Source: Lyophyllum atratum
Lineage: Eukaryota; Basidiomycota; Agaricomycetes; Agaricales; Lyophyllaceae
Reading direction: 5' to 3'
Assembly (NCBI GenBank): GCA_014905825.1
Contig: JACGCN010000036.1
Location: forward strand, 62,001-126,000
Length of the DNA stretch: 64,000 bases
Position numbers and translations under genes: made by a program. Under the pieces are notes generated by a model. The model was not told the origin of the DNA and made no database searches. It worked only from the letters and a program-made list of their open reading frames with translations. Numbering within the stretch: the stretch's first letter is position 1; the number at the start of each line of letters is the position of its first letter. Shown here piece by piece: positions 23,289-60,628 of this stretch.

Positions 23289-23562
23289 CTACTCAACAAA
23301 ACAGATCTATCGAAAAGGAACGAGCGTTATTCAACGAATTCCTGTTTGGTAACGAACGAACACTCACGAAGGGTTCGCCAAGCTCAATGGAACGGTTACA
23401 TGTCAACCCGGTGCAGCACTGGAAGTGAGGGTCACTTAGATCGCAAGTGAACCCCTGCCGCATGCACTGGAATCCGGCCGTATTGGCTTCGGGTAAGGCT
23501 GCGGCGCTAGTAGTACCCGCGACCAGGGTGATCAAAACTAGAGTGTTGAAGAGGAAGCGCAT
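23289..23562 (-). CDS. Secreted six-cysteine (cystine-knot type) peptide SSP1
   Basis: Predicted 70-aa secreted peptide. Exon 1 (23562-23368) encodes a signal peptide ('MRFLFNTLVLITLVAGTTSA') and five cysteines. A phase-0 intron with GTGAGT donor is followed by an 18-nt exon (23306-23289) encoding ICFVE and a stop, which supplies the sixth cysteine. Spacing is C-x6-C-x8-CC-x4-C-x11-C, the inhibitor-cystine-knot arrangement. A nearer acceptor would give a five-cysteine form; the chosen one matches the structure of the six sister genes. A TATA-like box lies ~70 nt upstream. The function is unknown; the fold alone does not show toxicity or effector activity. Confidence 0.75.
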
Positions 23563-23628
23563 TGCTTGGTGGTGTGCGATGTAGGGGCGGGGTAGCTGGA
23601 GGGACCTGGGGATGATTGACCCGGCTCG

Positions 23629-23635
23629 TATTTAA
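23629..23635 (-). promoter_or_regulatory. TATA-like box of SSP1
   Basis: TTAAATA on the minus strand, about 70 nt before the ATG. It is the most divergent of the seven SSP core promoters. The leader shares 'ATCATCCCCAGG' with SSP4. Confidence 0.45.
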
Positions 23636-24002
23636 GATCTCACGGAATTCTTGTCCCTCAACCGGTTGCAACGGGCCTTGATAATCAAGATCCTGCCAGG
23701 TGGACCCCCCAGTTTTGAAGCATCACAGGTTAGTGACAGGGAAAGACAGCCTGCCACGACAGGATACACCGGCTCATGAAAGGCGAACGGCCGGAAGTGA
23801 CGTCGGCTGATTTGACGCGCCAACACGCGCCAACACTTTTACGGCGCATTACGGATTTCAAACGGTCTTTGTCGAGGATTCATCATTCTAAGAGAGAACT
23901 GTAACCCTGGGGTCGAGCAGATGGTTAAATTTCCACGTTTGCTTCATAACGTACTCCTTTCACTACGATTATCGCGTATCAAGAGGCATCTCGGGCCTAC
24001 AT

Positions 24003-24712
24003 CTAATTAAATGCTGCGATGGCACGGTCGATAGCAGCGTCAGACAATGTCTTCAAAGCCTTGGCCCTATCTTTCTGGGAATCCTGAAGGAAATGTATAA
24101 GTTCTCAGAAGACCTGATGATGAGATAGAAACGGTCTAACCGGTGCGACCGAAAGGAATGCATCCGTAAGCTTAGCTCCAGTAGCTTTGACGCTCATTAG
24201 GTGGTATTGCGCGACGGGGTTCACGAGGTTGCCAACAAGTGGGACATTTCGGAACGTGTTACACTTGGCGGCAATCGCCGTCGCGGCCTCGTCAATGATG
24301 GGTTCTACACCCTGAAGAGCGTTCAAGATCTTGGTACCGTCAGCCATAGATAACGGCCCTGGTAGACCCTAGAAGGCAAGATCTTGAGAAAATGGCGTAG
24401 TTCAGTAAAGAGAAAGAGAACTAACGTTGAAATCGGTGATTCCTTTCGTCATGGCGGCGACGACGCTGCTTGCACCAGAGTGAAGAGGCTGCATAACCAG
24501 AGTATTACTTTTAGTAGAGCTACAGAAATAAAGTGAACGATACGGACCAAAGCTCGGAGGAGAGACCCTCCTTTATCAGGAAGAGCGGCGACAGTATCGT
24601 GGAGGCTAGTGACCTGGCCTATGATGTCGTTGATATTGGCTAGGATGTCGGCCACAGATGATGCGGAGGCAACGGCAACGAGAGAGGCGAGCAGAGCGAA
24701 AGAGATTTTCAT
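24003..24712 (-). CDS. HsbA-type cell-wall galactomannoprotein
   Basis: Hydrophobic-surface-binding protein A family, secreted helical proteins that coat or bind hydrophobic surfaces. Four exons (24712-24548, 24488-24426, 24368-24141, 24083-24003) join in phase to about 178 aa. The N-terminus 'MKISFALLASLVAVASASS' is a signal peptide. Family landmarks are 'VADILANINDIIGQVTSL', 'LHSGASSVVAAMTKGITDFN', 'ADGTKILNALQGVEPIIDEA' and the C-terminal 'AKALKTLSDAAIDRAIAAF'. The first donor is GTCCGT, slightly unusual but in frame. It lies 440 bp from the SSP1 gene and on the same strand. Confidence 0.88.
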
Positions 24713-26340
24713 CTTGGACAGACTGACATGACCCGTCGTAAAATAGAGCCGCTTTTATAGCTCGCGCGCTGAACAAGATATAGTTCACTTTGTAAGGGCC
24801 GGAGTGGGGTGCGGCGAACAACGGAATGTAATTTGCGGAATGACGAGGGCGAGCCGAATAAAGGATGTGTGATGTCCGATAGCGTTGAAACCAATGGAAG
24901 GTTCGGTTTGGCTTGACATCTATGATTTTCTGCGGGAGCCAACCTGAAAATGGGAAACCTAGAAGTGCCCATCGGAACGTTTTTAGTAGCTTCAAAGATA
25001 GCGTGAACGAAATGAGCCCATACCTTGTCCGGGGCTTCATAAATCAATTACTGAAGATGCAAGACTCAAAGAAGAACACGCGGCAAGAGTGCTAGGAGGT
25101 CATCGGTCCTGAGTGTGATTTCGACGCTAGAAGGACATTGCAACTCGAAGATCCGCTCTCGCCTTGAACATGGACTTGTGTCGTGTCTTTCCGGGATCGT
25201 GCTCTACAACAACCTGGTCGAGTAAACCTTGATGAATTTTTGCGACCAGCCGCATGTGCAGTACTTGATGTTCTCTCGCATTTTCGCTGGCTAAGCCGGA
25301 AAAGAGGCCTCATCCTCGTCTCTGGGTGATTGGTAGTGTTGGGCGACAGCCTGTTTATTTTCCATCAAAAAACCTTTACAAACAAGAATGCATGGGACTT
25401 GTGGCTCTCCTCGATTCGAGCCACTGTGCTCTCCCGCCTCCTGTTGTCTTCTACACCACTTCGTCAGTCAATAGCATTGAACAGGTTTATAAAATATATG
25501 TCCAAACCTAATGGGTGAACGTCTCATTTGTGCTTACCGAATGTACTACTTAATCAACGCCTTGACAGCTAGAATACTACGGTATGTCCATTTGTGTGCT
25601 GGGTTTTGTGATTCGTCGTGCTGGCGAGATATGCATGTTCAGACTAACCATTTAGGTCATTGGGCTGGCACGAAAATCGCTGATCTTGCTAGGTGCCATA
25701 AGGATAACATTTGACAGGGACGCTTTCTGCTCCAGCTAACGAACGGGGAATGGTTTTGCTCAGTTGTCGATGACTTTTTGAATTGAAGAGTCGAGCGGTG
25801 CGACAAATTGACCTAGAAGTTGAGCAACACTAAAGGTGACAGGACATTAGGCGCTCTAAGTATTCTGGTTTTATACTATGAGATTGAGGGATGAACCGCA
25901 TGTCAACTGGTGATAATCCCGCACATCCGAGCGAAGGTACGAACCCACGTGTTTTGACGCGTATATCCTGATGACCACGCAGATCTCAGCAACTCAACCG
26001 CTTTTCGCTTCAAATGCCGCTAGTTGGGACATGGTACTTGCTACTAACTCCAACATCGTTATTATCATCTGGCAACATGCCGAATGTCACGTTTGGCGTT
26101 CTCTTCATCTCCGAGTTGTTCTTTGCCGAGATAGGACAGTGATATCGCCTCTGTACGTGTGTTCTGGCGTTTTGAACCTCCTCTCACCCTCAGAAGACCC
26201 CGAGAATTCTCGGACAAGTCGGCTGCCCAACACCCGGTCGGTCCTATACATTACCAAAAACTTCTGGTTTCTCATTCTGAACGATTTTCCCCCCCCAGTT
26301 CGGCCACCACTAGCGTGCCCCTAACACTCCTCGACTGTCC
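24713..26340. other. intergenic, no supported gene
   Basis: Only short frames without motifs. The left end holds the HsbA promoter, with a TATA-like 'TATAAAAG' about 50 nt before its ATG (minus strand). The right end holds the promoter of the fusion gene. Confidence 0.45.
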
Positions 26341-28911: not shown

Positions 28912-29012
28912 TTTGCCAGCCCTTTAAGTAATGTCTGTAAGTGAATTATTTGTTATCACTCAGTCATTTACTAAGGAGTACTCTCTGAACTATGTCTGAA
29001 GCGTATCCACAG

Positions 29013-29111
29013 TACCTCCGATCCATCATAGAACGACTCGGCTATGACATCGTTTGAGCGGTGATCAAAAGGGAGGCATCAATAACAACTACTCACCGTC
29101 TGCCTATTGTC
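29013..29111 (-). repeat. diverged duplicate of the SSP2 3' flank, left part
   Basis: This stretch aligns by eye with 30323-30420, the 3' flank of SSP2: both contain 'GATCAAAAG', then 'GAGGC', 'TCAA' and 'CTCACCG' at similar spacing. The alignment resumes at 29707 beyond the hairpin element, so the duplication pre-dates that insertion. Confidence 0.6.
29103..29111. repeat. 9-bp target-site duplication, left copy
   Basis: CCTATTGTC flanks the hairpin-rich element here and again at 29707-29715. Confidence 0.75.
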
Positions 29112-29706
29112 TAGACTCGAGCCAGTCCGCTCACAAGTTCTACACGATGTCAAATCCTATTGCGACAAACACATACAAATTAGTTGGACATGTGACGAGA
29201 AAGGCAGCGAACTTGTGAGCGGACTGGTATGTCTTGTCGTCTGTTTGGCGGAGCCCCGCCAAAGCTGAGGTTGGGACTTCAAAAAATTGGGACGTCGAAC
29301 CTCAAAAAAAAGTGCGAAAAGTGAGTATACAAAAAACCGTTTTTTGGACCTCTGGATGCTAGTCAGCTAAAAATTAGAAGGGTGATTTTTTGAGTTTGAC
29401 TTAAGCGTCTTGAGAGGATGGCGGGTGACGAGGTGACTTGCACCCGCCATCCTCTCAAGACGCTTAAGTTTTTTCCAAAAATTTGTACTTTATTAAACCA
29501 TGTTTTCGAAATCTATCTACTCTAAAAATCACTTTTTGTATACTCAATTTTGTGACTTTTTTCTGAGATGTGGAAAGCAATTTCGACGAAGTCCCAACCT
29601 CACGTTTGGCGGGGCTCCGCCAAAAAGACGACAAGACAGACCAGCCGGCTTCGCATCTGCGAGTTCCGCGAGTCATGTGATGCGAAGCCGGCTGGGGACG
29701 AGCCTA
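29112..29706. mobile_element. Hairpin-rich DNA transposon (MULE/foldback-like, non-autonomous)
   Basis: 595-bp element between 9-bp direct repeats. Ends are imperfect inverted repeats: TAGACTCG... at the left, and TAGGCTCG... read inward from the right, followed by CCAGTCCGCT and CCAGCCGGCT. Inside are a 19-bp perfect hairpin (29122-29140/29209-29227), a long imperfect fold-back (29231-29280 pairing with 29588-29637), a nested perfect 29-bp palindrome arm pair (29399-29427/29441-29469) and a 16-bp hairpin (29641-29656/29680-29695). It has no coding capacity. The 9-bp duplication fits Mutator-like elements; this classification is inferred. Confidence 0.75.
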
Positions 29707-29715
29707 CCTATTGTC
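29707..29715. repeat. 9-bp target-site duplication, right copy
   Basis: CCTATTGTC, matching 29103-29111. Confidence 0.75.
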
Positions 29716-29775
29716 GCTCAACATCTTGATCACGAGGAGCACACATAGTACCCTCATGCTATGTACTCTTCACTC
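29716..29775 (-). repeat. diverged duplicate of the SSP2 3' flank, right part
   Basis: Continues the homology with the SSP2 locus (compare 30415-30475), including the region equivalent to its mini-exon. The similarity fades further right, and no cysteine-coding exon 1 is visible, so only the 3' part was duplicated or survived. Confidence 0.5.
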
Positions 29776-30041
29776 GGCCGGTACAGTTAGCGACTTGACC
29801 TTCGACATATCCTGATGCCCTCCAAAGCTTGCCTGCGAGTCGTTTCCCAATCTACTTGAACCTAGAAATCAAACTGGAAATAAACATAATTCTTCGAGTA
29901 CAATAAATATTGCGTGAACAAGCATGACTGTTCGCCATAGCGCTAGACGTAGACAAGATGTAGACTGGGTCTGTCATCGAAAGAAATTGGGGATGGATGG
30001 TTCTCGGGCAAGTAAGTGTCCCTCGGCAAACGACACGTACA

Positions 30042-30115
30042 GGCCGACTAGCTCAGCTGGTTAGAGCGTCGTGCTAATAACGCGAAGGTCTTGGGTTCGA
30101 TCCCCACGTTGGCCA
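30042..30115 (+). tRNA. tRNA-Ile (anticodon AAU), copy 2
   Basis: Same 74-nt sequence as copy 1, on the plus strand, with a TTTT run about 22 nt downstream. The flanks do not resemble those of the other copies. Confidence 0.97.
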
Positions 30116-30456
30116 CGCCTGCGAGACGTGCATCTCCGTTTTGTCGCGTGAACTATGCTAGCTTCGACCCCCCGGTACTATATTTATCGACAACATATAC
30201 GCACCAGATACTGTATATTCAAAGACCATCAAGCTCGAGGAATAAGTAACTGTATTATAAACGAAATCACGTCAACCCTGTCTGTACAAAGCCGATTTTT
30301 GAACTACGTTTTAGTTTCAACAGTCCCTCCGATCCAACAATTCTATGACATTGGATGAGTGATGATCAAAAGTGAGGCGTCAACAACTGCTCACCGACAT
30401 CATCCGCCTACTCTCCGTAGCTTTACATTCCGATGACCCAGGGCACAACATCACCC

Positions 30457-30780
30457 TCACGCCATGCATTCCTAAGTAGCAGCAACGATCAAACCAGTCA
30501 CCATCCAACGCCGCACAAGAGGACCCTTGGAAAAGCTTACATTGCCCAAACGACGGGAAAAAGCGCAATTGGACGAGCAGCAGTCGGAATGCTCGCGACA
30601 GTGCAAGCCGTTTGGGCGGCAAGCAACCGCGTCAGCGTCGAGAATGCCTACAAGGCGATCACCGACGCGGAAGCAGACAACGTCGTCAACGTTAGTGCCA
30701 ACGTAGTGGCTGAAGGCGGCGGCAGAGCTAGTACCGGCGAGGACTGCGATGAAGGCAAGAGTGGATAAGGTGAAGCGCAT
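30457..30780 (-). CDS. Secreted six-cysteine (cystine-knot type) peptide SSP2
   Basis: Predicted 84-aa secreted peptide, the longest of the family. Exon 1 (30780-30541) has a signal peptide ('MRFTLSTLAFIAVLAGTSSA') and a propeptide-like stretch with one extra cysteine. Cysteines 1-5 of the motif follow ('CRPNGLHC', 'DCCSSNC'). A GTAAGC donor and TTAG acceptor lead to a 15-nt exon (30471-30457) encoding ECMA. Spacing is C-x6-C-x5-CC-x3-C-x9-C. The TATA box TATATAAGAC lies about 85 nt upstream. The 3' flank has a diverged copy at 29013-29775. Confidence 0.8.
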
Positions 30781-30863
30781 CGTTGAGTGGGAGTAGTAAG
30801 TTCTGGCTGGTTTGCAGACTGCGGGAGGGGATACTGAAGTCAAAGAGCACACCCGTTTCATGT

Positions 30864-30873
30864 CTTATATACC
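30864..30873 (-). promoter_or_regulatory. TATA box of SSP2
   Basis: GGTATATAAG followed by ACATG on the minus strand, about 85 nt before the ATG. It is the same TATATAAGAY core as in SSP3, SSP4 and SSP7. Confidence 0.65.
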
Positions 30874-33030: not shown

Positions 33031-33104
33031 GGCCGACTAGCTCAGCTGGTTAGAGCGTCGTGCTAATAACGCGAAGGTCTTGGGTTCGATCCCCACGTTG
33101 GCCA
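33031..33104 (+). tRNA. tRNA-Ile (anticodon AAU), copy 3
   Basis: Same 74-nt sequence as the other copies, plus strand. T-runs (TTTTTGAATTTT) lie about 17-30 nt downstream. Confidence 0.97.
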
Positions 33105-33724
33105 CTAAAACTTGTTGGAATTTTTGAATTTTACCCCGTAGCCGTAGTTCGGTCATATGGATGGGATGCTCCATGTCATTGTAAGAAAGTCGACATCAGA
33201 TATCACCCGCGCTGCTTACATTCATCGAACTTAAATATGCTTTCAGCTCCATGTGGGCAAGACAGGCGAGCGCATGGCCGACGATGATGAAGACAGCTTG
33301 GGTGGTTGCCCCTTTCAGCAGATTGCTACACTGGTATAACCTCTTATAACCTCTGTATATATCGTGGGAGGTCTGGAGTCCACCCGCAATCTGTGATCTG
33401 GATACGACTCTCTGCAATAGGAGGGCACAAGCGACACGACAAAACTGATAAAATGGATATTAATGCAACTCCGGTATCCCAAAAATACAAGGGTTACAAT
33501 GGATGATGGGTGTGTGCAGTCGTACTTACAGAGTGTGAGAGACGCGGAATGGATACAGAGAGAAATGTTGAGGAATAATAGTAAAAAAAGTTCGAGCGAA
33601 ATCCTAGAAACCGCAACTTGAACTGGGACCATCTCCGTGCCGTCGTTACGCTCACGCGCACCGGACAGGGTGAGATGATGGTGGACCAGTCCCGCACAAC
33701 CACAACACACAAACCCCTTCCGCG
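33105..33724. other. intergenic, no supported gene
   Basis: No motif-bearing frame. It includes the 3' flank of the SH3 adaptor gene. Confidence 0.5.
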
Positions 33725-37385: not shown

Positions 37386-37562
37386 TCGGGTATTCCGTTT
37401 CGCACTCCATATTCTCTCCGTACGTGTTTCTTTCACGTTCGACGGCTGATTCTTCAAGTTTCAGCGCATACATACTCCTGAAATCAGATATTCAGGCGCC
37501 AAAACCCTCGATCACGTAAGTGATTCATTTACAACCGTATATTGATCTACTCTTTAGACGAT

Positions 37563-40277
37563 ATGCCCGGATCTGATGACGATGGAATTGGGACCTCTGG
37601 TCTCGGCGTCGCTGGCATTGAGCTGGGAACCCCCGCGACTCCTGCAAGTGCTTTCAGCATTAACACGCCGATGCCGACCCCTCGTACTCCATCAGCCCCG
37701 TACTTCAAAGGAAGACGAGTCCAGGATTTCTTAGACACGCTTGAAGCCTATGCCGACAACGCAGGTGTAGAACATTCATTACTTCCAGGATATGTCCTTC
37801 GCTACTGTCACGAACGTGTTCGCCAAGTCCTCGAGCAATCCGCGGTATTCTCTGGTAACGACTGGGCGGCAACTAGCGCGCATATCATCAAATTTTATGG
37901 CTCCAACGACCCGGTCATCGAACAAAGCCCTGAGCGCCTTCGTCAGTGGGCCGTAAAACATGGAGACCACGGCTCTATCAAGAGTGTCAAGGACGTAGCG
38001 AGATATAGGAGAGAATTCGAGCTATTGTCTTCTAAACTTGTCTCGGGTGGAGAGATGCTTCAGAAAGACGTTAACTTGCTATTTTATAGGGGAATTCCAG
38101 ATCCACTTCGCGGCAAAATCAAGAAGAAGATACCGGTGCCTAACCAAGCGAAGAAATCACCACCAGCAATCGATACACTAGTCACCCTTTTAACCAACTA
38201 CTTCGAACATCAAGACCTCGACGACGAACTCCCATCGCTGTCCTTAATGGTCGAAATACCGTCGGACGAAGAAGATGAGCTAGATGACCTCCCGATACGT
38301 CCCAAGTTTGGAAAGAACGTAACTTTTGACATCCCTACACAGAAACAGGTACCTGCAGCACCGGTGGTCGATCCGACGATGGCCGAGCTAGAACGACAGA
38401 TACGAGAATTAAAGACGGCTAACGCTCAGCTTCGACGGATCCAGAGTATGCCCCCGCTCAACAACTTCCCCGACACGAAATATAACGATCAACGATGTAT
38501 TATGTGCGGCGGACGACACCCCGATCGCCCTGCCGGACTCAGGTTTTGCCCAGAAACTCAGAAACTCATTCACGAAGGGTACATTCAGATCGGAACCGGC
38601 GGGAGGGTGTCTATGTTGGATGGGACGGATCTCCCGAGGGCATATGATACTGAAGGGGGAGTGGCTAAAGTACTGAGGGACAGACGCGCGGCGAAGGGAA
38701 AGGAAAGGGAAGGGAAGGATAGACCCCCTCACCTGTCGGCATTTGCGGGACTACAGTACGACGGCGTCGACTACGAAGAAGACACCTTGTTCGACTATGG
38801 GGTCAGATCGGCGTCTGCGACTCAATCTACCGCCTGGCGTGCTTTCGCGTCGCCTGCCGAACGTACTCAGAAGGAGGACCAGAGACACGATCCCACCAAG
38901 CGCCCTGCCAAGAAAGCACCAGCTGCCCCTCCCATTCTTCCTCATCCCGACGATTTGAATGCTAACCCTCATTTGACTAGGAAGCGGGCGCATTTGGAGA
39001 AACCGCCGAATACGATGCCTGGGCCGACCCGTACCCCTTCGAACCCCCCTCCACGACTTCCTCAGCGCGACGAGCCGATGGATGTGGCAGAACCCCCGCG
39101 AGCACCTTCGACATCACACAACATGCCGCGACCTCCCCCAGTCAATACAGAACAGGCTTTCAAGAACAATCGGAAACGAGTACCCCCCAATCCGCCGAAA
39201 CCATCGAAACCGCCTCAGGACGTCGACATGCGCAACACAGCGAAAGGTCCTAACAAGAATACAGCAGGTTACCATTTCACGTCTTCAGTACAGGAAATGG
39301 TCGACATGGATTCCGTACAGGCGAAGATACTGGAAGCTACAATTAATATAAGCGTACGAGATCTCTTGGGCTGTTCTCCTGAACTACAAAGACGCATGGC
39401 TAACCTCACTCGAACACGCCGAGATTACACAGATAAAACGGTAATGGTTCAGTACGGGGAGCAAGGCGAGAACTCAGGGAGCGAGGATGAATACGACTCT
39501 GAAGAAGAAGACGAGGTTTACGCATCGGCATTCATGGCGACTTATGAAGATAACGTGTCATCGAATCAGGCAGACACCGAGGGTATGATTAACTCTAGAG
39601 TCGCTATGACGTTTGATACCGGTCGAGATACGGAAGATTCAGTACTGGAACGATATGCTCACGCCGTCAAAATTCACTACGAGCCTGTCCCTCTCTTCGC
39701 CATGGTCACAGGTCGATTCAACGGGAAATTCGGTGGAGTCGATGTATCTTTTATGATTGATACTGGTTCAGAACTAAACTTGGTCTCCCGCGACGTTTAT
39801 ACTAGCACGGGATTACCTATCGACCTAGATGGCACGCGGTGGTCCCTGAAAGGGATCAACGGAAACCCTGTTCCCCTAGGGGGATGTGTTCGAGATGTAC
39901 CGATTTTACTCAATGGAACTCGATTCGACCACCATTTCTTTTGTAGCTCGGACGCCTTAGGTTGCGGGAAAGCGAGCGTCATCTTGGGACAGCCATGGTT
40001 ACAGTGGTACGAGGCTGGGATCAACTACACGCGGCGCGGCTTGATGTGGATGAAGATCTGGAAAGACGGACGATTCAAGGGACGGAAACCGGACCTGGTC
40101 ATAGCCCTTTGCAACCCGGGAGCTCCTCGGAATGCGAGCTCGTTGACTCCTGACAACCCACACAGTACACCAGGACGCGACAAAATTCAACAGAAGAATG
40201 CCAACCACCCCAAGGCATGGATCGAGGACGACTCCGATTCCGACGACGACATGGCGGCTGGCGTTTCGAAAAATTAA
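37563..40277 (+). CDS. Retrotransposon Gag-protease polyprotein
   Basis: 904 aa from ATG 37563. The N-terminal half is a capsid-like region ('YFKGRRVQDFLDTLEAYADN' onward). A zinc-knuckle-like 'CIMCGGRHPDRPAGLRFC' lies near residue 312, then a Pro-rich linker, 'ISVRDLLGCSPELQRRMA', and the retropepsin motif 'FMIDTGSELNLVSRD' near residue 730. It ends at TAA 40275-40277 after an acidic tail. The next ORF overlaps it by 61 nt in the -1 frame. Confidence 0.9.
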   Translation: MPGSDDDGIGTSGLGVAGIELGTPATPASAFSINTPMPTPRTPSAPYFKGRRVQDFLDTLEAYADNAGVEHSLLPGYVLRYCHERVRQVLEQSAVFSGNDWAATSAHIIKFYGSNDPVIEQSPERLRQWAVKHGDHGSIKSVKDVARYRREFELLSSKLVSGGEMLQKDVNLLFYRGIPDPLRGKIKKKIPVPNQAKKSPPAIDTLVTLLTNYFEHQDLDDELPSLSLMVEIPSDEEDELDDLPIRPKFGKNVTFDIPTQKQVPAAPVVDPTMAELERQIRELKTANAQLRRIQSMPPLNNFPDTKYNDQRCIMCGGRHPDRPAGLRFCPETQKLIHEGYIQIGTGGRVSMLDGTDLPRAYDTEGGVAKVLRDRRAAKGKEREGKDRPPHLSAFAGLQYDGVDYEEDTLFDYGVRSASATQSTAWRAFASPAERTQKEDQRHDPTKRPAKKAPAAPPILPHPDDLNANPHLTRKRAHLEKPPNTMPGPTRTPSNPPPRLPQRDEPMDVAEPPRAPSTSHNMPRPPPVNTEQAFKNNRKRVPPNPPKPSKPPQDVDMRNTAKGPNKNTAGYHFTSSVQEMVDMDSVQAKILEATINISVRDLLGCSPELQRRMANLTRTRRDYTDKTVMVQYGEQGENSGSEDEYDSEEEDEVYASAFMATYEDNVSSNQADTEGMINSRVAMTFDTGRDTEDSVLERYAHAVKIHYEPVPLFAMVTGRFNGKFGGVDVSFMIDTGSELNLVSRDVYTSTGLPIDLDGTRWSLKGINGNPVPLGGCVRDVPILLNGTRFDHHFFCSSDALGCGKASVILGQPWLQWYEAGINYTRRGLMWMKIWKDGRFKGRKPDLVIALCNPGAPRNASSLTPDNPHSTPGRDKIQQKNANHPKAWIEDDSDSDDDMAAGVSKN

Positions 40278-44696: not shown

Positions 44697-44809
44697 ATTA
44701 TGTTCGTTGTGTGTGACAGGCACACTATGGTCGCAAACGGGATAACCCCAGCACACCTACCACATTATGTACTAGAGAGTGTAGTCCAAAAACTGAATTT
44801 ACCGTTCTA

Positions 44810-44883
44810 TGGCCAACGTGGGGATCGAACCCAAGACCTTCGCGTTATTAGCACGACGCTCTAACCAGCTGAGCTAGTCGGCC
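44810..44883 (-). tRNA. tRNA-Ile (anticodon AAU), copy 4
   Basis: Same 74-nt sequence as the other copies, minus strand, with a TTTTT terminator about 17 nt downstream on that strand. It lies 114 bp beyond the hAT right duplication. Confidence 0.97.
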
Positions 44884-46847
44884 AATGTAATTGTAGCCAC
44901 TTCAGTGCCTGTCCTTCGACGATCGACTGAAAGGAAGCTACTGGGCTATATCCCGCCGCATTCTGGAGTCTCCAAACTCGTTCGAAACATATAATGTTAG
45001 CTCAAGATCTTTGGGTTCGCGGACCTTTCCATCGTATGCATAGAATGCTCACCTACGCGCCCCTCGTTTCCTACATGTGGATGACATCGTGTTCAAGGTT
45101 TGTCGACCGCGCTATTGCTCGTTTAGACGCTGTGATTACTTCGCGGTCCACAATTTCCTCTTCGGCCCTTAGTCGTGATTATATGCATAATAATGACGTG
45201 TTGTAATTAGCCGCATTTCGTCAAGGAGCGGATGATTCGAAGGATTCTTGAAAGCCATAAGTAGCTGGGGTCCAAGGACACGAATTATTTTGCACAAAGA
45301 ATACGTTCCACGGATGCCGCGATTTGTGATGAGGCTATCGTCAATACCACGCTGGATGACGCGGAGAAACCCAGAAATGTGCACATTGTACCGCCCCCCG
45401 ATGCGAAGATGAAAAAGCTGCTGAACGGAATGCTATCTGCGTTCCTTGAAAGATCAGGAAGATTTTGAGCGCTGTTCAAGCTGTAAATTGAAACGAGTGC
45501 ATGTATAGATGATGAACAAGTACCTTGGGTTGAGTGCACCGCCCGTTCAATACGGGATCATTGATTTGATAATGATGGGCTCCGCAAACGCTCCGTATCA
45601 AACAAAGATTGTCCGTCGTGAGAAGCCTTGACGCTGCACGGCATACGAGAACTTGTCAAACGTGTTCGCGAACGTCGAGACTGCCGAAGTCATGTGGTAT
45701 CTGACATGAGGCGCCCGTAATCATTCTAGCTGTCCAAGCCTATTTATAATGAGATGATGCAATGATAACATACCCTCTATGTTCCGCATAATGAACAGAT
45801 GGGATAGGAAGACCTGATAATAGCTGATAACATCACCACGGCCATAACGCTACGTCTATGGCTCTGCAACGTCCGTAGGTGGGGGCCGGACGAAGAGCGA
45901 TTGGGGCGCTACTCAGAACTCCTGAAAGAAACATTAGAATAACGAATTTCACAGCAGATGACGCGTAAGACATATAGATGAAGCACACGCACCCGCTATA
46001 ACTGAAAGAGACTCGCTGCTAGTGTCTTTTGAGAATAGCGGGAATGCAGGATTTGAATGATTATAAGAAGCATGACTCAGAAGCCCTTCCAGATTTGAGC
46101 GGCTACACGATACGTCTTCAACTTACGGAACATATTTGGATGAAACGCCTCAACCTCGCTCAAACGAATCTGAAACGGGCTCAGGGAGCGGTGCACAAAT
46201 TGCGCCGATGTCGTGGAGATGGTATGGAGTGTGGGTATCGAGTAGATCCTGATCAAAGCTGACAGTTATGAGATGAGAGAACTGTGTATTGTCGGAGGGT
46301 TCAAGATGCCGCCTAGTCTGTAGTATGGATGTAAGTGAGTAGGTGCTCACCTCTATGGCGCTTTCAAGGAAAAATTTGGCGGCGGCCCGATCCATCAGTC
46401 CAAGGTTCAGTTCACGTGAGTTCCTGATTAAAATTTTGATGCCCGAGACCAGTGGCCCTGACGGTCCTGATACCCCCCCTTGTACCTCCTGCGCCCACCG
46501 GCGACAATACCGGCGCTACGAAGTAACCGATCACTTGGTATTTTTGCACATTCACTCCCAGTGGTGTGAAGGAGCACGCACAACTTCCACTATGGCATGG
46601 GTAGGCGTCAGAGATCATATTGACGGACGCCAGATCACAGATTGGATGGCACCGCCTGCAGTTTGTCCTGCTCGATCATGAAACCTGACTTGGCTAAGAA
46701 TGTCCACAAAGATGAGTCGTGCACCGCTTCTTGTAAATTCCCGATCCTAGTGTTCCTGTCAGTTCCTGTCTTAGCGCGTTCCCGTATATATAACACGGCT
46801 GATAACCCGCACCTGGCATCAGATACCCACCTCCACCTTACTATAAC
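44884..46847. other. intergenic, no confident gene
   Basis: A plus-strand frame ending near 45467 ('AIVNTTLDDAEKPRNVHIVP' then 'MKKLLNGMLSAFLERSGRF') looks protein-like but is under 70 aa and has no start. Other frames have no motifs. The promoter of the peroxygenase gene is at the right, with 'TATATAAC' about 60 nt before its ATG. Confidence 0.4.
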
Positions 46848-47698
46848 ATGTCTCTCCCACCAAACCACCCTGCTATCCCCAAACACGCACACAACGGAAA
46901 GAGCTGCCCAGTCACTGGCAAAGGCCATGAATGGTGTCCTCCGCAAAAAGGCGATAGCCGATCTCCATGCCCCGCGCTGAACACGCTCGCAAACCATGGC
47001 TACCTGTACGTCCTCTCTCACTCCGTTCGTGGAACACACAACCGACCTCTTCATCCAGACCCCGCGACGGAAAGAACCTCAGCGTTTTCGACTTGATCTC
47101 CGGTTTAAGAGCCGGTTATAACCTCTCCCTACCTCTCGCAGCCTTCCTCTCCTTCGGCGGATTCGTCCTCCTGCGCCGATTCCGGAATCTTGATCTTTAT
47201 GATATTGGCCGGCATGGATGTATAGAACACGACGCGAGCTTGGTGCACCGAGACGCTTCCCAAGGACAGGAGTTCGCACCCATCAGCATCAACGACCGAC
47301 TCGTGGATCGCCTGCTCGCTGACGCAAAGACGGGTAACGAGGAGGGCGAAGGGCCGGAAGCGGGTGACAGAAGAACATTGATGGACGCGTCTGACGTTGC
47401 CCGGGCCCGTATTCGCAGAGAGAAGGACTCGCGACCTCTGGATGCGATGCATTCTGAGATTGCGAGGGGAGAGATGGCGATCATCCTTGGAGTTTGGGAG
47501 ACGAAAGCTGGAACTAATGTCGGCGTGCCGGTGGAATGGATGAGGGAGTGGATTGGCCACGAGCGACTGCCGAAGGAGTGGAAGGCGACGCATGTGCAGG
47601 GGTTGTTCGACGTGATGAAGCGAGCGAGTTCAATTCGGGCGGCGATGGACAGTCAAAGGGCGGAAGCAGCTCAGGTGGAAGATAAGTCGAAACTCTGA
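46848..47698 (+). CDS. Short unspecific peroxygenase (heme-thiolate peroxidase)
   Basis: Heme-thiolate enzyme of the chloroperoxidase/UPO family, which uses peroxide to oxyfunctionalise organic substrates. Two exons (46848-47005 and 47059-47698) give about 265 aa. 'SPCPALNTLANHGYLPRDGK' contains the PCP heme-ligand cysteine (near residue 43), and 'GCIEHDASLVHRD' the EHD magnesium/acid-base motif. The length fits the 'short' UPO group. No classical signal peptide precedes the PCP motif, so it may be intracellular or the true start may lie upstream. A hydrophobic stretch ('LPLAAFLSFGGFVLL') follows the motif. Confidence 0.85.
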
Positions 47699-52560: not shown

Positions 52561-52878
52561 TTACTTTCTCTTCATCGGCAGACACTGGCTCCTACAACAG
52601 AGGTGGGTCTTCAACGGGAATTTCAACGCAGTACTAAATGCCACAATTAAAGAAAATAGGACTTCTTTGGGTGAGGTTCGGGATGCAAGGAGGAGTAAGC
52701 GTACATTTCTGGGTGGTAACCCGAGAGGCTGGCAACTATTGGAGCAGCAGGCGGACGAGAATAAGCACGGATCTCCATCTTTAATACAGGACAGGGCGAC
52801 CACATCAGGTAGAGAGACGGCGCTGGCGCTGAAAACGAGGGCAAGCAAAGTGAAAATGGTCAACGTGAGTTTGCACAT
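52561..52878 (-). CDS. Secreted six-cysteine (cystine-knot type) peptide SSP3
   Basis: Predicted 65-aa secreted peptide. Exon 1 (52878-52705) encodes the signal peptide ('MCKLTLTIFTLLALVFSASA') and cysteines 1-5. A GTACGC donor leads to a 24-nt exon (52584-52561) encoding CLPMKRK, which gives cysteine 6. Spacing is C-x6-C-x5-CC-x3-C-x9-C, the same as SSP2. The acceptor used (after GGAGCCAG) is one of two close AGs; the other would remove the cysteine. The TATA box is about 65 nt upstream. Confidence 0.77.
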   Translation of the reverse strand: MCKLTLTIFTLLALVFSASAVSLPDVVALSCIKDGDPCLFSSACCSNSCQPLGLPPRNVRLLLLASRTSPKEVLFSLIVAFSTALKFPLKTHLCCRSQCLPMKRK

Positions 52879-52936
52879 TTTTTATGACGGGCGGGTGGGT
52901 ATCCGGGTTTGCTTCAGAAGACACCCCGTTTTGCAC

Positions 52937-52948
52937 ATCTTATATACC
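52937..52948 (-). promoter_or_regulatory. TATA box of SSP3
   Basis: GGTATATAAGAT followed by GTG on the minus strand, about 62 nt before the ATG. Confidence 0.65.
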
Positions 52949-54005: not shown

Positions 54006-54268
54006 TCAAGTACACTCCTATCATAAATTTGTGAGCATTCAGGGTCCCAGCTTCCCGAAGCAAAGAGTCCAGCCTCGTCACTCACCTCACGGTCAGGACT
54101 AACGCGACGGCACACAGAACCCTTGCAGCAATTGGCGTCGCCGGTGCATTTCCTGCCAAAGCAGGGCGTCCTCAAGCTACTAAAGTTGTCGTCGGTCAAG
54201 GCGGCTGCGGCGGCGCAGGTGCCCAGGATGAGGGTGAGTAGACAGAGCGTGCTAAAGATGACGCGCAT
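54006..54268 (-). CDS. Secreted six-cysteine (cystine-knot type) peptide SSP4
   Basis: Predicted 64-aa secreted peptide. Exon 1 (54268-54086) encodes 'MRVIFSTLCLLTLILGTCAA' (signal peptide) and 'CFGRKCTGDANCCKGSVC'. A GTGAGT donor leads to a 12-nt exon (54017-54006) encoding ECT and a stop, which supplies cysteine 6. Spacing is C-x4-C-x5-CC-x4-C-x9-C. The mini-exon again begins Glu-Cys, as in SSP2. The promoter has TATATAAGACG. Confidence 0.77.
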
Positions 54269-54333
54269 CGTGTAGAATAGACGACTGGTACGTGGGGTTG
54301 GAGAGGATCCTGGGGATGATAGAGCGCATACCG

Positions 54334-54347
54334 GACGTCTTATATAC
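54334..54347 (-). promoter_or_regulatory. TATA box of SSP4
   Basis: GTATATAAGACGTC on the minus strand, about 70 nt before the ATG. The leader shares 'ATCATCCCCAGG' with SSP1. Confidence 0.65.
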
Positions 54348-54870
54348 TCGTTTGCTGATATACTAATACAGGGGAAGAAGTCTTGCACCCGTGATGAGGA
54401 TCAGAATCGTATCGAGCACCGTCGGAAGCCTGCTGCGTGTGCGTAAGAGAACAGTATTTACGATGTGATGGCAGAGCCTCGTGGTCTGTAGTATCGGGGT
54501 AAGCGTGTTTAATGGGGCTCAGAAGAGGGGAAGAAGCCATGGGTGCGGTCAATGCTGGTTAGATATAAGTAATTGCGAGACCATATCCAAGTAAACTCGC
54601 AGTCGTCACAAATGGCAGCTGGACCCTCAAGCCAGGCGAACAAGGTTCATTTCGATGCTTCAAATAACTCAATCGACACAGCACAGAATCGCATCCAAAT
54701 TCGTTACACCCGCATTCCCCTCAGCCCTCTCGGCCCCCTCCAACTGAACCTAGCGCCATTCCACAGATAAGCCTCGATATGATAAAATCCAAAGCACGGG
54801 AATCGAAACGAACCCTCTCTCGCTTACCGAAGCTACACTCTCAAGAACGTCTTGAAGACATTGGTATTCC
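54348..54870. other. intergenic
   Basis: No supported gene; the right part is the 3' flank of SSP5. Confidence 0.5.
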
Positions 54871-55159
54871 TCACATTGGGGCTGATTTAACACAAATCTA
54901 TAACAAGAAGGAAAAGGCCCCTCAGTTTCGATACCTTACCAACCCCGAAACGTAACGAGAAGCTTACCGGTGTATCGACGGTTCCTTTGGGTCTGCAGAC
55001 AAGCCCTTCGCAGCATACTACGAGCCCCACTGTATATCCACTACAAGGCAAGCCCGCCGTTAAGCAAATCGGGCCCGAAGCCACTTCGGGAAAGGCGACG
55101 GCGGCGTTGGCGCCTACGATGAGCGCGAGAAGAGTTAGGGTGCTGAAGACGGAGCGCAT
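54871..55159 (-). CDS. Secreted six-cysteine (cystine-knot type) peptide SSP5
   Basis: Predicted 72-aa secreted peptide. Exon 1 (55159-54968) encodes the signal peptide ('MRSVFSTLTLLALIVGANAA') and cysteines 1-5. A GTAAGC donor leads to a 27-nt exon (54897-54871) encoding ICVKSAPM. Spacing is C-x6-C-x9-CC-x4-C-x10-C, with a longer second loop as in SSP1. It lies about 0.6 kb from SSP4, same strand. Confidence 0.8.
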
Positions 55160-55234
55160 TGTGTGTTATATCTGCTGACAGTCGGTGGTTGGTGGGTGCG
55201 GTGGGAAAGGATCCTAGTGATAACGTCTTACACC

Positions 55235-55248
55235 AGGTCTTTTATACC
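55235..55248 (-). promoter_or_regulatory. TATA box of SSP5
   Basis: GGTATAAAAGACCT on the minus strand, about 80 nt before the ATG. Confidence 0.65.
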
Positions 55249-56739
55249 TGCTCCTCTCAGATACCCAGGTGTTTGATGCATGGGACAAAGGTGGGATACT
55301 GCTGCTTCGGGGGACGTGGTGGCAGGCAAACGTAAAGGAAAGAAAGGAGACCTGAAGTCAAATGTCCACCGCTGAGCGTGTCAACGAGGTATTTGGATGT
55401 ACCAGGGGCGAGTGGCGGTCGAGACGTGACCCTAGCCTCGTGCACGCGGACTGGTATCAGGGGTACACTTGTACAGCGAAATGGTAAATCGGGCACGGTA
55501 GTAGAGTGTGGCGGTGGATATCAATCACACACTGTGCGCAAAGAGAGGCAGGCCCGCAATATTGCCGCGCGACGAGTCCCAACGACGGTCTAGGCGACTT
55601 AGAGACCCAAGGGCGGATTGAGGGCGGAAGTGTACGAGAAGCAGCGAATCGAGATGCTTTAGCTCCCGAACCACCTTCACCGAGCGCTTGTCGTATCTCC
55701 CAGTCACGACGCAACGATATCCATCGCGGATACTAAGGGCCTGATGATGAGAAAAACCAATGAGCGATGGTTCGTGGAAATGGAGGATACGCAAGACAAA
55801 CATATTTCCTGGCCCGAGCATGGGATTGAGGAGCCTCCTGCAAGGTCGCATCCGGTCCGATAAGGAACGGGATGTCAGTGCGTCACGGAAGGCCCGGTGT
55901 TGGCATGTTAACCTTACCTAGTGGCGGCAACTGGTGACCGCGTCAGATGGCACTCGCATTGGCCAAGATAGGTTTGGGAACATACAGGCTCTGATATAAT
56001 GATCAATATCAAATGATCACAGTACGTCTGCCCAACGAGAGAAGAGAATAGCTGATTCGTTGACGCACGAGCTGATCTCTTCGTTTCATCCATTCTGGGT
56101 CTGTGGGCGCATCTGCTTCAGATAGCCAAGGATTCGGACCGTGTATGTTCGGCCCGCTGTGTGAGACTCCCCGACTTGAGTCTCAAGCAGCATTCAAACG
56201 CGCTCGCGAGTCGCGACGACGTGGACAAGACGTTGAAGTCGATGAAGAACTTCGCGCGGCAAGGAATCGGAGATCATGTCTGTGGATTGTGGTCAAGGAC
56301 GAGACTCGTTACCATCCGTCAATCTTACGAGAACATCGATATGACAACTCCAGGTGAACGAAGCTGAGCTTGAGTGCCGCAACTTGAACTTGATCGAAAA
56401 AGCCGTCTCCGAGATGACCGGATAATCTTTTCGGTAAGCGAACCAACTGGGCCTAAGTAGGGCCTAAGGCCTAAGGCCTAAGGACTCGAAGCGGGTAAGC
56501 ACCAACCTCCATTATCACCCACGAAAAAAAATACAAATACTTCAAACCAATGCTTATGCTGATAATATACCATGTCCCCCTCCAAGTCCATATATCCATA
56601 CATCCCTCCCCCACCACTTCTCACCCACCCTCCTCTCACCCACCCTCCTCTCACCCACTCTCCCCCACCCATCTCTCCCCCCACCCGCACCCCTACCCCC
56701 CCACCACCTTCTTCACCAACGCCGAAACCAGAATCCTCA
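55249..56739. other. intergenic, no supported gene
   Basis: No motif-bearing frame. A short palindromic GGCCTAA array is at about 56452-56479. Pyrimidine-rich microsatellite-like CCACCCTCCTCTCA repeats (about 56625-56655) lie near the 3' end of the DnaJ gene. Confidence 0.5.
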
Positions 56740-58851
56740 TCAGTGCTGGAAATGGAACTGAAACCCCCCCTCCCTCCCACCTTGACTCGCAAACCCACCC
56801 CCCCCAGGGAACCCCCCGCCCTGCTGCTGGAAAAAGTGCGCAAAGGGATGCTGCCCGCTCGCGAACGGGTGCCCGCCCTGCTGCGCCATTGGGTCGTTCG
56901 GGTCGTCGCCGGCGTCGACGCGGGCGCGGAGCTCTATCGAACATCGTGAGTGAATAAGTAACTTGGTAAAGTGGAGGGGGGGGGGAGGAAAAGAAGGAAG
57001 TGGGGAGGAAGGAAGGAGAGGGAGGAGAGAAGGGAGAAGGAAGAAGGAGGGGCGAGAAGGGGGGGAGACGTATACGTACCAGGATTAGAAAGAGTCTCAT
57101 ACGCTTCATTGACAGCAGCCATCTTCGCTTCCGAGCCGCCTTTATCCGGGTGGGCCGTTTTCGCAGCTGTGCGGCTGTAAGTGAGGAGGGGAGTGAGTGA
57201 GTATATGCGCGAAGACGGGGGAGAGGGAGGAAGAAGGAAGAAGGAAGAAGGAAGAAGGAAGAAGGAAGAAGGAAGAAGGAAGAAGGAAGAAGGAAGAAGG
57301 AAGAAGGAAGAAGGAAGAAGGAAGAAGGAAGAAGGAAGAAGGAAGAAGGGAGGGAGACGTACAAGGCCTTTTTGATCGCCTTGGTATCCGCGTCCCTCGA
57401 TACGCCTAGAATCTTGTAATAGTCCTTCTGTTTACTCTGTTTCAGCAGCTTCTGCGCACGCTGTAGCCGTTGATGAATCTACCACCGCACCAAACCAACA
57501 AATCAGAGAGAGTCGTCGAGAAAGGGAGAGAAAAACACCACCCACATCCCGACTACTCTGCCCACTCGCCTCCCACGCCCTCTCCAACCACCTCACCCCC
57601 TCCTCCCACTCCCCCCTCCCCACGCACCCCTCCCCCACCCCCACCAACCCATCCACATCCTCCGCACACCCCTCCATCCCCACCAACTCCCCACACCACC
57701 TCTCCATCTCCCGCTTCGTCCCGAGCTGCGTGTACGCCTTGCACAATGCCCTTACGAGCGTCTGCCGCCGCTGCGACACCTTGAACGCATCGGGGAGGGG
57801 GATCTCGGGGGTGTGCTGTCTCGCGGCGAGCTGTGGCGGGAGGAGCTTGTCGCGGGCGGTGTGTTCCCTCAGCGCCTCCTCGAACCGTGGTAGGACCTCC
57901 CCTTTCTTTCCCCCGCCGGGCGCGACGAGCAGTTTGACGACCCCGCGCCAGTCGTCTTTGGCCTGGAGCTCTTCCAGGGCGGCGAAGGAGCGGTCGAAGG
58001 CTTTGAGGAGGCGGTGGAGGGTGAGGCAGGGCTTGGAGTCGGGGTCGTAGTGGAGGCATTGTTTGAGGGTGTTTAGGGGGGCGGGGGAGGGGGAGAGGAG
58101 GAAGTAGGAGAGTCGGAATATGGTCGTCATTAGGGTTGTGGACGGGGGCAGGAGGTGGGAGAGGCGTCTGTGGGAACGGGGCAAAAGGTTAGTGGGGTTG
58201 GTGGAGAGGGGAGGGGGAGGAGACTTACGTGAGATCGCCGACGGCGCTGTCGACGTCCCCGGAAGCGAGCGCACATTCAGCGCGGACGGAGCGGATATCG
58301 ATGGAGTGGCTCGCCACGCGGAGCGCAGCACTGGCGCTCTCTATACACGCATTCCACAGCTGCGCCGCCCTCTCCTTCTCCATCTTCCCCTCCCCTCCCT
58401 CCGCCTCCCTAATACTCCCCTCCAGCTCCCCCGCCTCCTCATTCACCCCCTTCGCCTTCACATACGCCGCCAGCGCCTCCCTCGCGAGCTCAAAATGCCC
58501 GTCCCGCGCGTGTATGCGTGCTTTCATGAGGTTCGCATTGTCGAATGTGCCTGACGTCAGGGCCAGGACTTTGTCGAAGTCGTCGAGGGCGGGGCCGTGC
58601 CGCGAGAGACTGAAGTACGCCGTGGCGCGTTTGTAGTATAGTAGGTAGTCGGTGGGGGATTGGTCTATGGCCTCGGAGTATATCCGGGCTGCTTCGTTGA
58701 ATTGGCCGGCGGAGAGGAGGACGTTGGCCCTGGTGATGAGGGGGAGGAGGCCGGGGGGGTAGAGGCCGCCGGCGCTGGGGTCGGCGTGGACCCCCTTGAG
58801 GGCGCAGCTGGCGAGGAAGAGGAGGAGGGGCGAGAGCGCTGGGAGGCGCAT
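56740..58851 (-). CDS. ER DnaJ/TPR co-chaperone (DNAJC3/p58IPK type)
   Basis: ER-lumen Hsp40 that binds unfolded clients through TPRs and stimulates BiP. ATG at 58851; the signal peptide is 'LPALSPLLLFLASCALKGVH'. TPR-like helices follow ('RANVLLSAGQFNEAARIYSE', 'LLYYKRATAYFSLSRHGPAL', later 'NTLKQCLHYDPDSKPCLTLH'). The J-domain is split over introns: 'KDYYKILGVSRDADTKAIKK', then 'AKTAHPDKGGSEAKMAAVNE' with the HPD triplet. The last exon gives 'ELRARVDAGDDPNDPMAQQG', a Gly/Phe-rich tail and a final FQFHFQH. One J-domain intron holds a (GAAGAAG)n repeat. The reading frames are intact. Confidence 0.9.
57229..57349. repeat. 7-bp tandem repeat (GAAGAAG)n
   Basis: About 17 uninterrupted units in 121 bp, inside an intron of the DnaJ gene. 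On the transcribed strand it is a TTCTTCC pyrimidine tract. A second purine-rich tract (about 56972-57070) occupies the next intron. Confidence 0.9.
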
Positions 58852-59292
58852 GGTGGAGAGGATATGACAATGAGGGGGTAGCGGCACGTCACAGTTCAAC
58901 TTCAAATTGTAAGGACACGTTGCGTTCCCACGATCACCTATTTGTAGACCACTTCCACCGATCATTGACGTATCATCGTCTGCATATTCCTCATCGACGT
59001 GGAATCAAGGATTTATCTCACTTCCAGCTGGAGGTACCTCGGATGCACGCCTGCAGGTTTATGATCAACTCACCTCAAATCTAGCCTCCCAGGCACAGGC
59101 TTCCCATTAGAACACCTTAACTCGCCTTGCCACAACGGTCCTAGGCTCTAGACTTCCGCCTTCCACATTTTCTAGCCACTCTCTAAATTGGATCCGGACC
59201 GCCTTAGGACACCTTGGATCGTCAGTCATCCGATGATTGACACTTCTGGATACCCCCGTCCTTGGTTGGCGTGCGGTTACCGATGGCCGGGG
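58852..59292. other. intergenic, divergent promoters
   Basis: Between the DnaJ gene (minus) and SSP6 (plus). No gene seen. Confidence 0.5.
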
Positions 59293-59305
59293 TACATAAG
59301 ACGTG
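59293..59305 (+). promoter_or_regulatory. TATA box of SSP6
   Basis: TACATAAGACGTG, about 70 nt before the ATG. It matches the SSP7 box apart from one base. Confidence 0.65.
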
Positions 59306-59373
59306 TTGTCGTTGTCGCGCTCCCAGTCTTCAAGCCCTTATTCCCCTAGCCCATTCCTTTACCCGACTCGAAG

Positions 59374-59595
59374 ATGCGCTCCGTCTTAAGCACCCTTATT
59401 CTACTCGTCCTCATCGCAGGTATCATCGCCGCTTCGCCTAACACCATCGCCGACGGCTGTGCCCCCATCGAAGAAAAATGCAAGCGCGACACCGACTGCT
59501 GCGTAGGGCTCCGATGTATCTCCACTGTACGAGCAACTTATCTTGTATACTTTGACATTACTGAGAAGCCTTCGCAGCTGTGCGAAGCTCCGTGA
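59374..59595 (+). CDS. Secreted six-cysteine (cystine-knot type) peptide SSP6
   Basis: Predicted 56-aa secreted peptide, the shortest member. Exon 1 (59374-59526) encodes 'MRSVLSTLILLVLIAGIIAA' (signal peptide) and 'CAPIEEKCKRDTDCCVGLRC'. A GTACGA donor and GCAG acceptor lead to an 18-nt exon (59578-59595) encoding LCEAP. Spacing is C-x6-C-x5-CC-x4-C-x4-C, with a short last loop. The signal peptide is nearly the same as in SSP5, although the mature parts differ. Confidence 0.8.
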   Translation: MRSVLSTLILLVLIAGIIAASPNTIADGCAPIEEKCKRDTDCCVGLRCISTVRATYLVYFDITEKPSQLCEAP

Positions 59596-60281
59596 GGCAG
59601 GATACCCATGATCTTTGGCTTACGGCCTCAGGGTCTCGAACAGGCCGGGGAAGGTAAGTCGCCTTCTTCCATTACCTTAAATTTTACTCAAACTGCACCA
59701 GTACTCGCAAGAGCTGGATGGCGCGCTGGAGTGAAAAAAGCTAGTTCCTCGCGCTTCAATGTGGATGATTCGGAATTTGATACTGCATGATATCATGCAC
59801 TGTGCTACGTTCCAATGAGCCCTCTGCACGGTCACAGCCTCTTTAACAGCACGTCGCTGTTGGTCTTAGACTTCAGACAATGTCGGACCCCTCAAGCTCC
59901 ACGAGAGTACTGCTGAGTTCCGCTGAGCACGGCATGCTTGCCTGCCTGCCCAGAAGATCGTAGTGACAATCAGGAATCGTTGCTTCCAGACCTGTTACGA
60001 ACGAAGCACCGGGCCAGTGTAGACCCCTTGCCAATTTGAATTTGGAGTATGCCGTGCCAGATTGAGGGTCTGGTGACGAAGCCCAGATGCAGACCAAAAT
60101 TCGATGGGGTATCACGCTACCTACAGACTCAACCACGGAAAGGTAGTATGTGATAACCCTCCTTGCTGAACGGGTTTTTTTCCGGGCTGGACTCTACTTT
60201 CTGTAATCCCCTTACTTCGTCCTTCTGACTACAGGACCCATCGATGATGCTCTCGGACGTACAGCGGCAGACGAAAAACGG
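59596..60281. other. intergenic
   Basis: No supported gene between SSP6 and SSP7. Confidence 0.5.
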
Positions 60282-60294
60282 TATATAAGACGTG
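60282..60294 (+). promoter_or_regulatory. TATA box of SSP7
   Basis: TATATAAGACGTG, about 71 nt before the ATG. Confidence 0.65.
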
Positions 60295-60364
60295 TCGTCC
60301 TCACTCCCTCATCCCCCAGCACCCATACAAATTGCCACTACCAATCTACTACTCCTACCGAAAG

Positions 60365-60628
60365 ATGCGCCTCCTCCTCAGCACCGTCTCCATCCTCGCT
60401 CTGATGGTGGCAAGCTCCTTTGCCTCGGCCCTACCCGACGTTAAAGCGGCAACCTGTTTGGCGTCCAGCACGTCGTGCACCTCCGCGGCGCAGTGTTGCA
60501 CGAGGGCGTGCGATTATTACCTCTTGCCTAGTATTCATTACACGGTACGCCCCCGTTTTGCCAGTGCATCGAGCAAGGCGGGCAGTTACTGAGCGATACG
60601 GTTCTCGCCCGCGTAGGTTTGCCGGTGA
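60365..60628 (+). CDS. Secreted six-cysteine (cystine-knot type) peptide SSP7
   Basis: Predicted 63-aa secreted peptide. Exon 1 (60365-60544) encodes 'MRLLLSTVSILALMVASSFA' and cysteines 1-5 ('CLASSTSC', 'QCCTRAC'). A GTACGC donor leads to a 12-nt exon (60617-60628) encoding VCR and a stop. Spacing is C-x6-C-x5-CC-x3-C-x12-C. The short motif LPD after the signal peptide recurs in SSP3 and, as LPE or FPE, in SSP1 and SSP5. Confidence 0.77.

Follow-up and report, generated by a model that had tools for sequence, protein, structure and literature searches.

Excerpts of earlier reports describe knottin-like proteins from rusts, ascomycete pathogens, Beauveria and skin fungi (PMC6889267, PMC9632046, PMC8715435, PMC11043172, PMC12099005, PMC12204505). 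As given in those excerpts, MLP124266 of Melampsora (AvrP4 family), Avr9, BAS3-like proteins and proteins of Venturia and Beauveria are small, secreted and knottin-like in fold (PMC6889267, PMC9632046, PMC8715435, PMC11043172, PMC12099005). For mushrooms, an excerpted report only likens cyclic peptides to spider knottins (PMC10356791); two further matches, PMC9958986 and PMC5009743, contain the word "knotting" and have no bearing on the question. No agaric knottin was recognised among the matches listed in the open-access knottin and cystine-knot literature, closed journals lying outside that scope. Here we describe a locus of Lyophyllum atratum (Lyophyllaceae, Agaricales) with seven genes, g1 to g7, that are likely to encode a family of secreted inhibitor-cystine-knot (ICK, or knottin) peptides, each with its sixth cysteine set apart from the other five by an intron. 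The genes are likewise predicted to encode small secreted proteins; they are likened to the fungal effectors above, which come from plant or insect pathogens, by description and not by sequence. The scaffold itself is not new; the family and the split-cysteine structure of its genes appear to be.

The window, that is, the whole 64-kb stretch analysed, is C82:62001-126000, and positions below are numbered from its first letter. The seven genes claimed by a first-pass annotation of this DNA are all present, and its outer coordinates, 23,289 and 60,628, are the ends of our gene models:

g1, 23289..23562, minus strand: exon 1 23562-23368 (putative signal peptide and Cys1-5); intron 23367-23307, 61 nt, GTGAGT..CGATAG; exon 2 coding part 23306-23289, ICFVE and stop
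g2, 30457..30780, minus strand: exon 1 30780-30541; intron 30540-30472, 69 nt; exon 2 coding part 30471-30457, ECMA and stop
g3, 52592..52878, minus strand: exon 1 52878-52705; intron 52704-52634, 71 nt (69 nt on contig C64); exon 2 coding part 52633-52592, 42 nt, YCVEIPVEDPPLL and stop
g4, 54006..54268, minus strand: exon 1 54268-54086; intron 54085-54018, 68 nt (C64: 65 nt); exon 2 coding part 54017-54006, ECT and stop
g5, 54871..55159, minus strand: exon 1 55159-54968; intron 54967-54898, 70 nt; exon 2 coding part 54897-54871, ICVKSAPM and stop
g6, 59374..59595, plus strand: exon 1 59374-59526; intron 59527-59577, 51 nt; exon 2 coding part 59578-59595, LCEAP and stop (C64: LCQAL and stop)
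g7, 60365..60628, plus strand: exon 1 60365-60544; intron 60545-60616, 72 nt (C64: 67 nt); exon 2 coding part 60617-60628, VCR and stop

In all seven genes the intron is in phase 0, is 51-72 nt long and separates Cys1-5 from Cys6, as had been claimed. Moreover, exon 2 has Cys6 as its second codon in every gene, the relic of an eighth copy (g8, see below) included, a regularity that the earlier annotation had not mentioned. The coding parts of exon 2, including the stop codon, measure 12, 12, 15, 18, 18, 27 and 42 nt; the 12-27 nt range given previously thus covers six genes and leaves out g3. The term "mini-exon" is also too strong, because the terminal exon includes the 3' untranslated region, and only its coding part (12-42 nt) need be tiny. 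In this the genes differ from Trichoderma Xlr2, for which an excerpted report describes an internal microexon (PMC11121469).

A mechanical scan for ATG, 18-70 residues and C-x3-8-C-x3-12-CC-x2-6-C found exactly seven matches in the window, where 60 dinucleotide shuffles averaged 0.083 and never exceeded 1; the 90 kb of flanking C82 sequence held none. On C64 (70-180 kb, 110 kb) it gave eight matches, seven of them one-to-one counterparts of the C82 genes with order and orientation kept, and the eighth a low-complexity frame. The counterparts of g1 (gene structure kept) and g2 lie at C64:92983(-) and C64:99728(-), respectively. The two contigs are colinear over most of the compared stretches at roughly 80-95% identity, and are therefore treated as what they probably are, the two haplotypes of a dikaryon. 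A stricter scan, designed after the genes were known and requiring no ATG (five cysteines, a GT[AG]NG...[CT]AG intron, an x-Cys tail and a stop), gave eight matches in 154 kb of C82, seven in 110 kb of C64 and none when the C82 stretch was shuffled 60 times. The first DNA pattern tried for the family had been uninformative, with 178 matches versus 189 for its control.

Comparison of the haplotypes bears on whether the introns are used. All seven C82/C64 pairs retain the splice sites, the in-frame Cys6 and the stop. Pooled over the genes, the coding part of exon 2 has 7/144 mismatches (4.9%) and no gaps, versus 62/389 (15.9%) with 10 gap columns in the introns (splice ends excluded), 132/810 (about 16%) with 60 gap columns in the 120-nt 3' flanks, 108/1311 with 9 gap columns in exon 1, and 276/1974 with 252 gap columns in the 300 nt upstream. 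Exon 2 differs from the introns with a Fisher p of 4e-4 and from the 3' flanks with 1e-4, values to be read with the sites not fully independent and g3 supplying 42 of the 144. All exon 2 changes fall in the g6 and g7 pairs: both g7 differences are synonymous, the Cys6 codon changes from TGC to TGT in both pairs, the g6 stop from TGA to TAA, and two g6 residues change on C64 (E to Q and P to L). In g3, exon 2 is identical between haplotypes, as against 10 mismatches and 2 gap columns in the intron. Every GT[AG]NG donor was then combined with every [CT]AG acceptor, which gave one to five splice models per gene per haplotype. The x-Cys tail is the sole tail common to both haplotypes in five genes and one of two in g5; in g6 no tail is identical letter for letter, and the x-Cys tail is the only single-cysteine tail shorter than 20 residues on each haplotype. 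Two protein records carry the same kind of end: P0001, the record of g5, has exactly the x-Cys end, and a Collybia nuda protein, P0006, ends VCE where g7 ends VCR. Because splice sites and tails are conserved between haplotypes, we infer that the seven introns are spliced to the x-Cys tails. The first-pass view of a paralogous family with one conserved gene structure is supported.

We next considered the fold. Six cysteines in the order C-C-CC-C-C, with loops compatible with those of ICK peptides, occur in all seven genes on both contigs and in P0006; the measured spacing, C-x4/6-C-x5-9-CC-x3/4-C-x4-12-C in all seven, agrees with the one claimed. A profile of the mature parts gave 50 matches in the PDB at E<=1, all of which we take from their names to be of knottin type, while the reversed decoy gave one unrelated chain. 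In Pfam, g6 passes the Toxin_12 (PF07740) cut-off with 22 versus 21 bits. Structure prediction gave a knottin-like fold for P0006, with a predicted local distance difference test score (pLDDT) of 87-90 in the mature part. Its top fold match was the spinach trypsin inhibitor SOTI-III, matches less than 1 Z apart, toxins included, being tied with it. The N-terminus is short and hydrophobic with an A-rich end in all seven genes, judged by eye, and a helix is predicted at residues 3-17 and 6-15 in two models, those of g5 and of the Collybia relative. The exon 1 of g2 has a long pro-region with an additional cysteine. The decoy-controlled profile, the predicted Collybia fold and the g6 match together argue for the cystine-knot type that had been proposed.

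Several observations weigh against this assignment. Six of the seven genes miss the Pfam cut-offs, the best of the six reaching 18.6 bits (Toxin_12). For g5, structure prediction gave only a poor model, with a mean pLDDT of 63. Neither Foldseek search gave a hit at E<=0.001, and VIA Z was at most 3.4. Spider, scorpion and cone-snail ICK toxins (Toxin_12, Omega-toxin, Conotoxin_I2) share the C-C-CC-C-C framework, similar loops and a likeness in profile and predicted fold, whereas the L. atratum family is fungal and not from venom, has Cys6 on a separate terminal exon and passes Pfam only with g6; the likeness is one of cysteine framework and could have arisen by convergence. Mature net charges range from -3 to +2, with no loop indicating a target, and the x-Cys tail is absent from three of the four NCBI models found.

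Relatives were sought with three profile searches over 5.8 billion proteins, which were not exhaustive. They returned six distinct proteins: four of L. atratum, one of Collybia nuda and P0005, a Joint Genome Institute multi-cysteine protein for which a Toxin_12 domain is precomputed at E 0.11 and which was set aside. The Collybia nuda protein (BDZ94DRAFT_1312002, P0006) is the only one from another named species at E<0.1; it is 47% identical to g7, its closest gene, has six cysteines and ends in VCE like the VCR of g7 and the VCG of g8. Protein searches of the 64.76-Mb, 151-contig genome assembly with g5, g6, g7, g3, g1 and P0006 (g2 and g4 were not queries) matched this locus and C64, with two weak further hits, on C69 (E 0.23) and C24 (E 0.2). 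A Pfam Toxin_12 search of the genome gave nine matches: g6, g4, their C64 copies and five weak ones elsewhere, below the cut-off. On reading, the C69 and C24 hits and one of those five, on C87, showed no resemblance to family members. At the sensitivity used, the detectable family is confined to one locus. The genes had been called dispersed; this is loose, five of the seven lying inside about 8 kb and convincing relatives occurring only here and on C64.

Between paralogues, mean identity is 0.41 in the signal and 0.07 at mature non-cysteine positions (simple left-aligned loops, the first 20 residues counted as signal), in line with the earlier remark that signals are similar and mature parts very different. 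The rapid diversification read from this contrast is not seen between haplotypes. There the ratio of nonsynonymous to synonymous substitution rates (dN/dS) over all seven genes is 0.39 for signal plus pro-region and 0.16 for the mature part, or 0.29 and 0.07 without g7, so that the mature part is the more constrained, a sign of purifying selection. Mature peptides of g1, g4 and g5 are identical between haplotypes, the g4 protein showing no difference at all, and g6 differs in the tail only. For g7, dN is 0.31 and dS 0.46 in the signal, 0.18 and 0.53 in the mature part; dN is still below dS. Since mature parts differ strongly between paralogues and are more constrained than signals between haplotypes, the divergence of the paralogues is probably old and was followed by constraint, g7 being perhaps an exception.

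We propose a model in which exon 1 would supply the signal peptide, a short pro-segment and Cys1-Cys5, and removal of the phase-0 intron (51-72 nt) would join to it the terminal exon starting x-Cys, which adds Cys6; splicing would complete the cysteine set. The peptide would be oxidised in the endoplasmic reticulum, Cys3-Cys6 threading the ring of Cys1-4 and Cys2-5, and then be secreted. Expression, secretion and disulfide pairing of the seven peptides are inferred. A constant scaffold, unrelated loops between paralogues and strong constraint within most of them suggest several distinct extracellular targets. Because the loops share almost nothing between paralogues yet are mostly constant between haplotypes, each paralogue may have a target of its own, and the likeliest of the roles considered, held with less than even confidence, is that the peptides are stable molecules that act outside the cell by binding or blocking the proteins of other organisms, for instance fungivores or microbial competitors. 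The intron lies one codon before Cys6, and a peptide made from unspliced mRNA, lacking that cysteine, could for this reason not close the knot. Splicing as a gate on folding, with regulated intron retention switching the whole knottin battery between dead and active in step, is a very long shot.

Other roles for the same genes were weighed, among them the effector, antimicrobial and signalling roles that the first-pass annotation had offered as inference and that keep this standing here. Apoplastic effectors or signals toward plants or mosses, or signals in fruiting-body development, would fit with the knottin-type effectors described in excerpts for other fungi (Melampsora MLP124266, Avr9, BAS3-like; PMC6889267, PMC9632046, PMC8715435, PMC11043172); nothing ties the present genes to any host or stage, L. 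atratum having been sequenced in a study of pyrophilous fungi (cited in PMC8510539), and we consider such roles unlikely. Inhibition of proteases or other enzymes, with the same fold in the manner of squash and spinach knottins, we hold to be quite unlikely. Squash inhibitors bind proteases through loop 1, which contains the reactive site. Here loop 1 is not conserved among the paralogues, differing in all seven, and the top rank of SOTI-III is shared with toxins in the tie noted above. A role as generic membrane-active antimicrobial peptides would fit products that are small, cysteine-rich and probably secreted; weak matches include horseshoe-crab tachystatin A and a plant antifungal peptide, and the excerpt of a preprint on skin fungi suggests bacteria as possible targets of fungal knottin families (PMC12204505). 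The mature net charges are low for such peptides, however, and this role appears improbable.

The four NCBI proteins of L. atratum (FPV67DRAFT) comprise one with the conserved 3' end and three without. P0001 (g5) is identical over 72/72 residues, exon 2 tail included. P0002 (C64 copy of g4) reads through the intron, P0003 (g7) skips 20 nt directly after exon 1, running GT..AG, which is not kept on C64 (TGC is deleted there), and P0004 (C64 copy of g3) has a different end. The expectation that annotation would be troubled is borne out by these three disagreements, and an intron just before the last cysteine probably explains why most database models found end wrongly. Records for g1, g2 and g6 were not found by searches that were not exhaustive; as P0002 was found by one search and missed by another, their absence is weak evidence for missing annotation. 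That the intron is misread and the products are five-cysteine proteins reading on past exon 1, as in P0002, is extremely improbable: P0002, P0003 and P0004 do have other C-termini, and in each of the seven C82 genes the frame runs on beyond the donor to a stop at 73-105 residues, but the introns carry 15.9% mismatches in addition to gaps, their net lengths differing by 2, 3 and 5 nt in g3, g4 and g7, whereas the x-Cys tail is preserved and is present in P0001 and P0006.

Returning to the x-Cys genes, an eighth copy lies beyond g7:

g8 relic, 61024..61177, plus strand: Cys1-5 domain 61024-61110; intron 61111-61165, 55 nt, GTGAGT..TTGTAG; exon 2 61166-61177, VCG and stop

It was detected by the search with the Collybia protein (match 61,021-61,107, E 0.18), and has an in-frame stop codon upstream and no ATG or signal in that frame. 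No counterpart was found on C64: the alignable sequence stops immediately ahead of the domain and picks up again behind it, and the C64 stretch in between, when translated, shows no such domain. We read g8 as a haplotype-specific relic without its 5' part. The haplotypes are highly divergent at 59600-61350, around g7 and g8. In 250-nt bins, mismatches amount to 22-37% across 59.6-61.1 kb and to 62% in bin 61,101-61,350, whereas on either side they are 4-10% (61.6-63.35 kb) and 2-18% (58.6-59.6 kb).

A core promoter-like element lies, with 0-2 mismatches, before six genes:

54335..54346, minus strand: TATATAAGACGT, core promoter-like element of g4
30860-30871, minus strand: TATATAAGACGT-type element before g2
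52935-52946, minus strand: TATATAAGACGT-type element before g3
55235-55246, minus strand: TATATAAGACGT-type element before g5
59293-59304, plus strand: TATATAAGACGT-type element before g6
60282-60293, plus strand: TATATAAGACGT-type element before g7

A TATA-like core promoter is thus present in 6/7 genes, g1 having TTAAATACGA in its place; the C64 copy of g6 is without the TATA form. The window holds 10 matches, six gene-linked and four elsewhere, versus a mean of 2.7 in 100 shuffles, one of which reached 10. The exact 13-mer TATATAAGACGTG occurs four times genome-wide: at g7, at the C64 copy of g4, and at a pair of secreted cysteine-rich genes on C13 and C78 (L049, L050), presumably CFEM-like. 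Because two of the four copies precede these other secreted-protein genes, the element was rejected as a family-specific signal.

Other features of the window include retroelement-like frames at 37542-42337, between g2 and g3, with DUF4100/aspartyl protease and reverse transcriptase/RNase H parts, and a Pfam Peroxidase_2 gene at 46967-47698, which we assume to be of chloroperoxidase/peroxygenase type. A tetratricopeptide-repeat (TPR) gene at 56693-58965 (Pfam: 58225-58965), whose whole we guess to be a DnaJ/endoplasmic reticulum co-chaperone, lies between g5 and g6, and a perfect 7-base tandem repeat, AGGAAGA in 17.4 copies, occupies 57228-57349 in its region. The only tRNA genes found in the window by ARAGORN are four for tRNA-Ile (AAT), at 15887-15961, 30042-30116, 33031-33105 and 44809-44884; the distance from one of these to the end of g2 is 340 nt.

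If the knottin assignment holds, mushroom-forming fungi would have a knottin family with a diagnostic gene structure, a phase-0 intron followed by x-Cys and a short tail. This split can account for gene models that lose the last cysteine, and it yields a simple rule for finding such genes elsewhere: a five-cysteine exon, a canonical intron and an x-C tail, a combination seen 0 times in 60 shuffles of 154 kb. The g7/g8 segment, with its apparently haplotype-specific eighth copy, offers a place to follow the birth and death of genes in the family.

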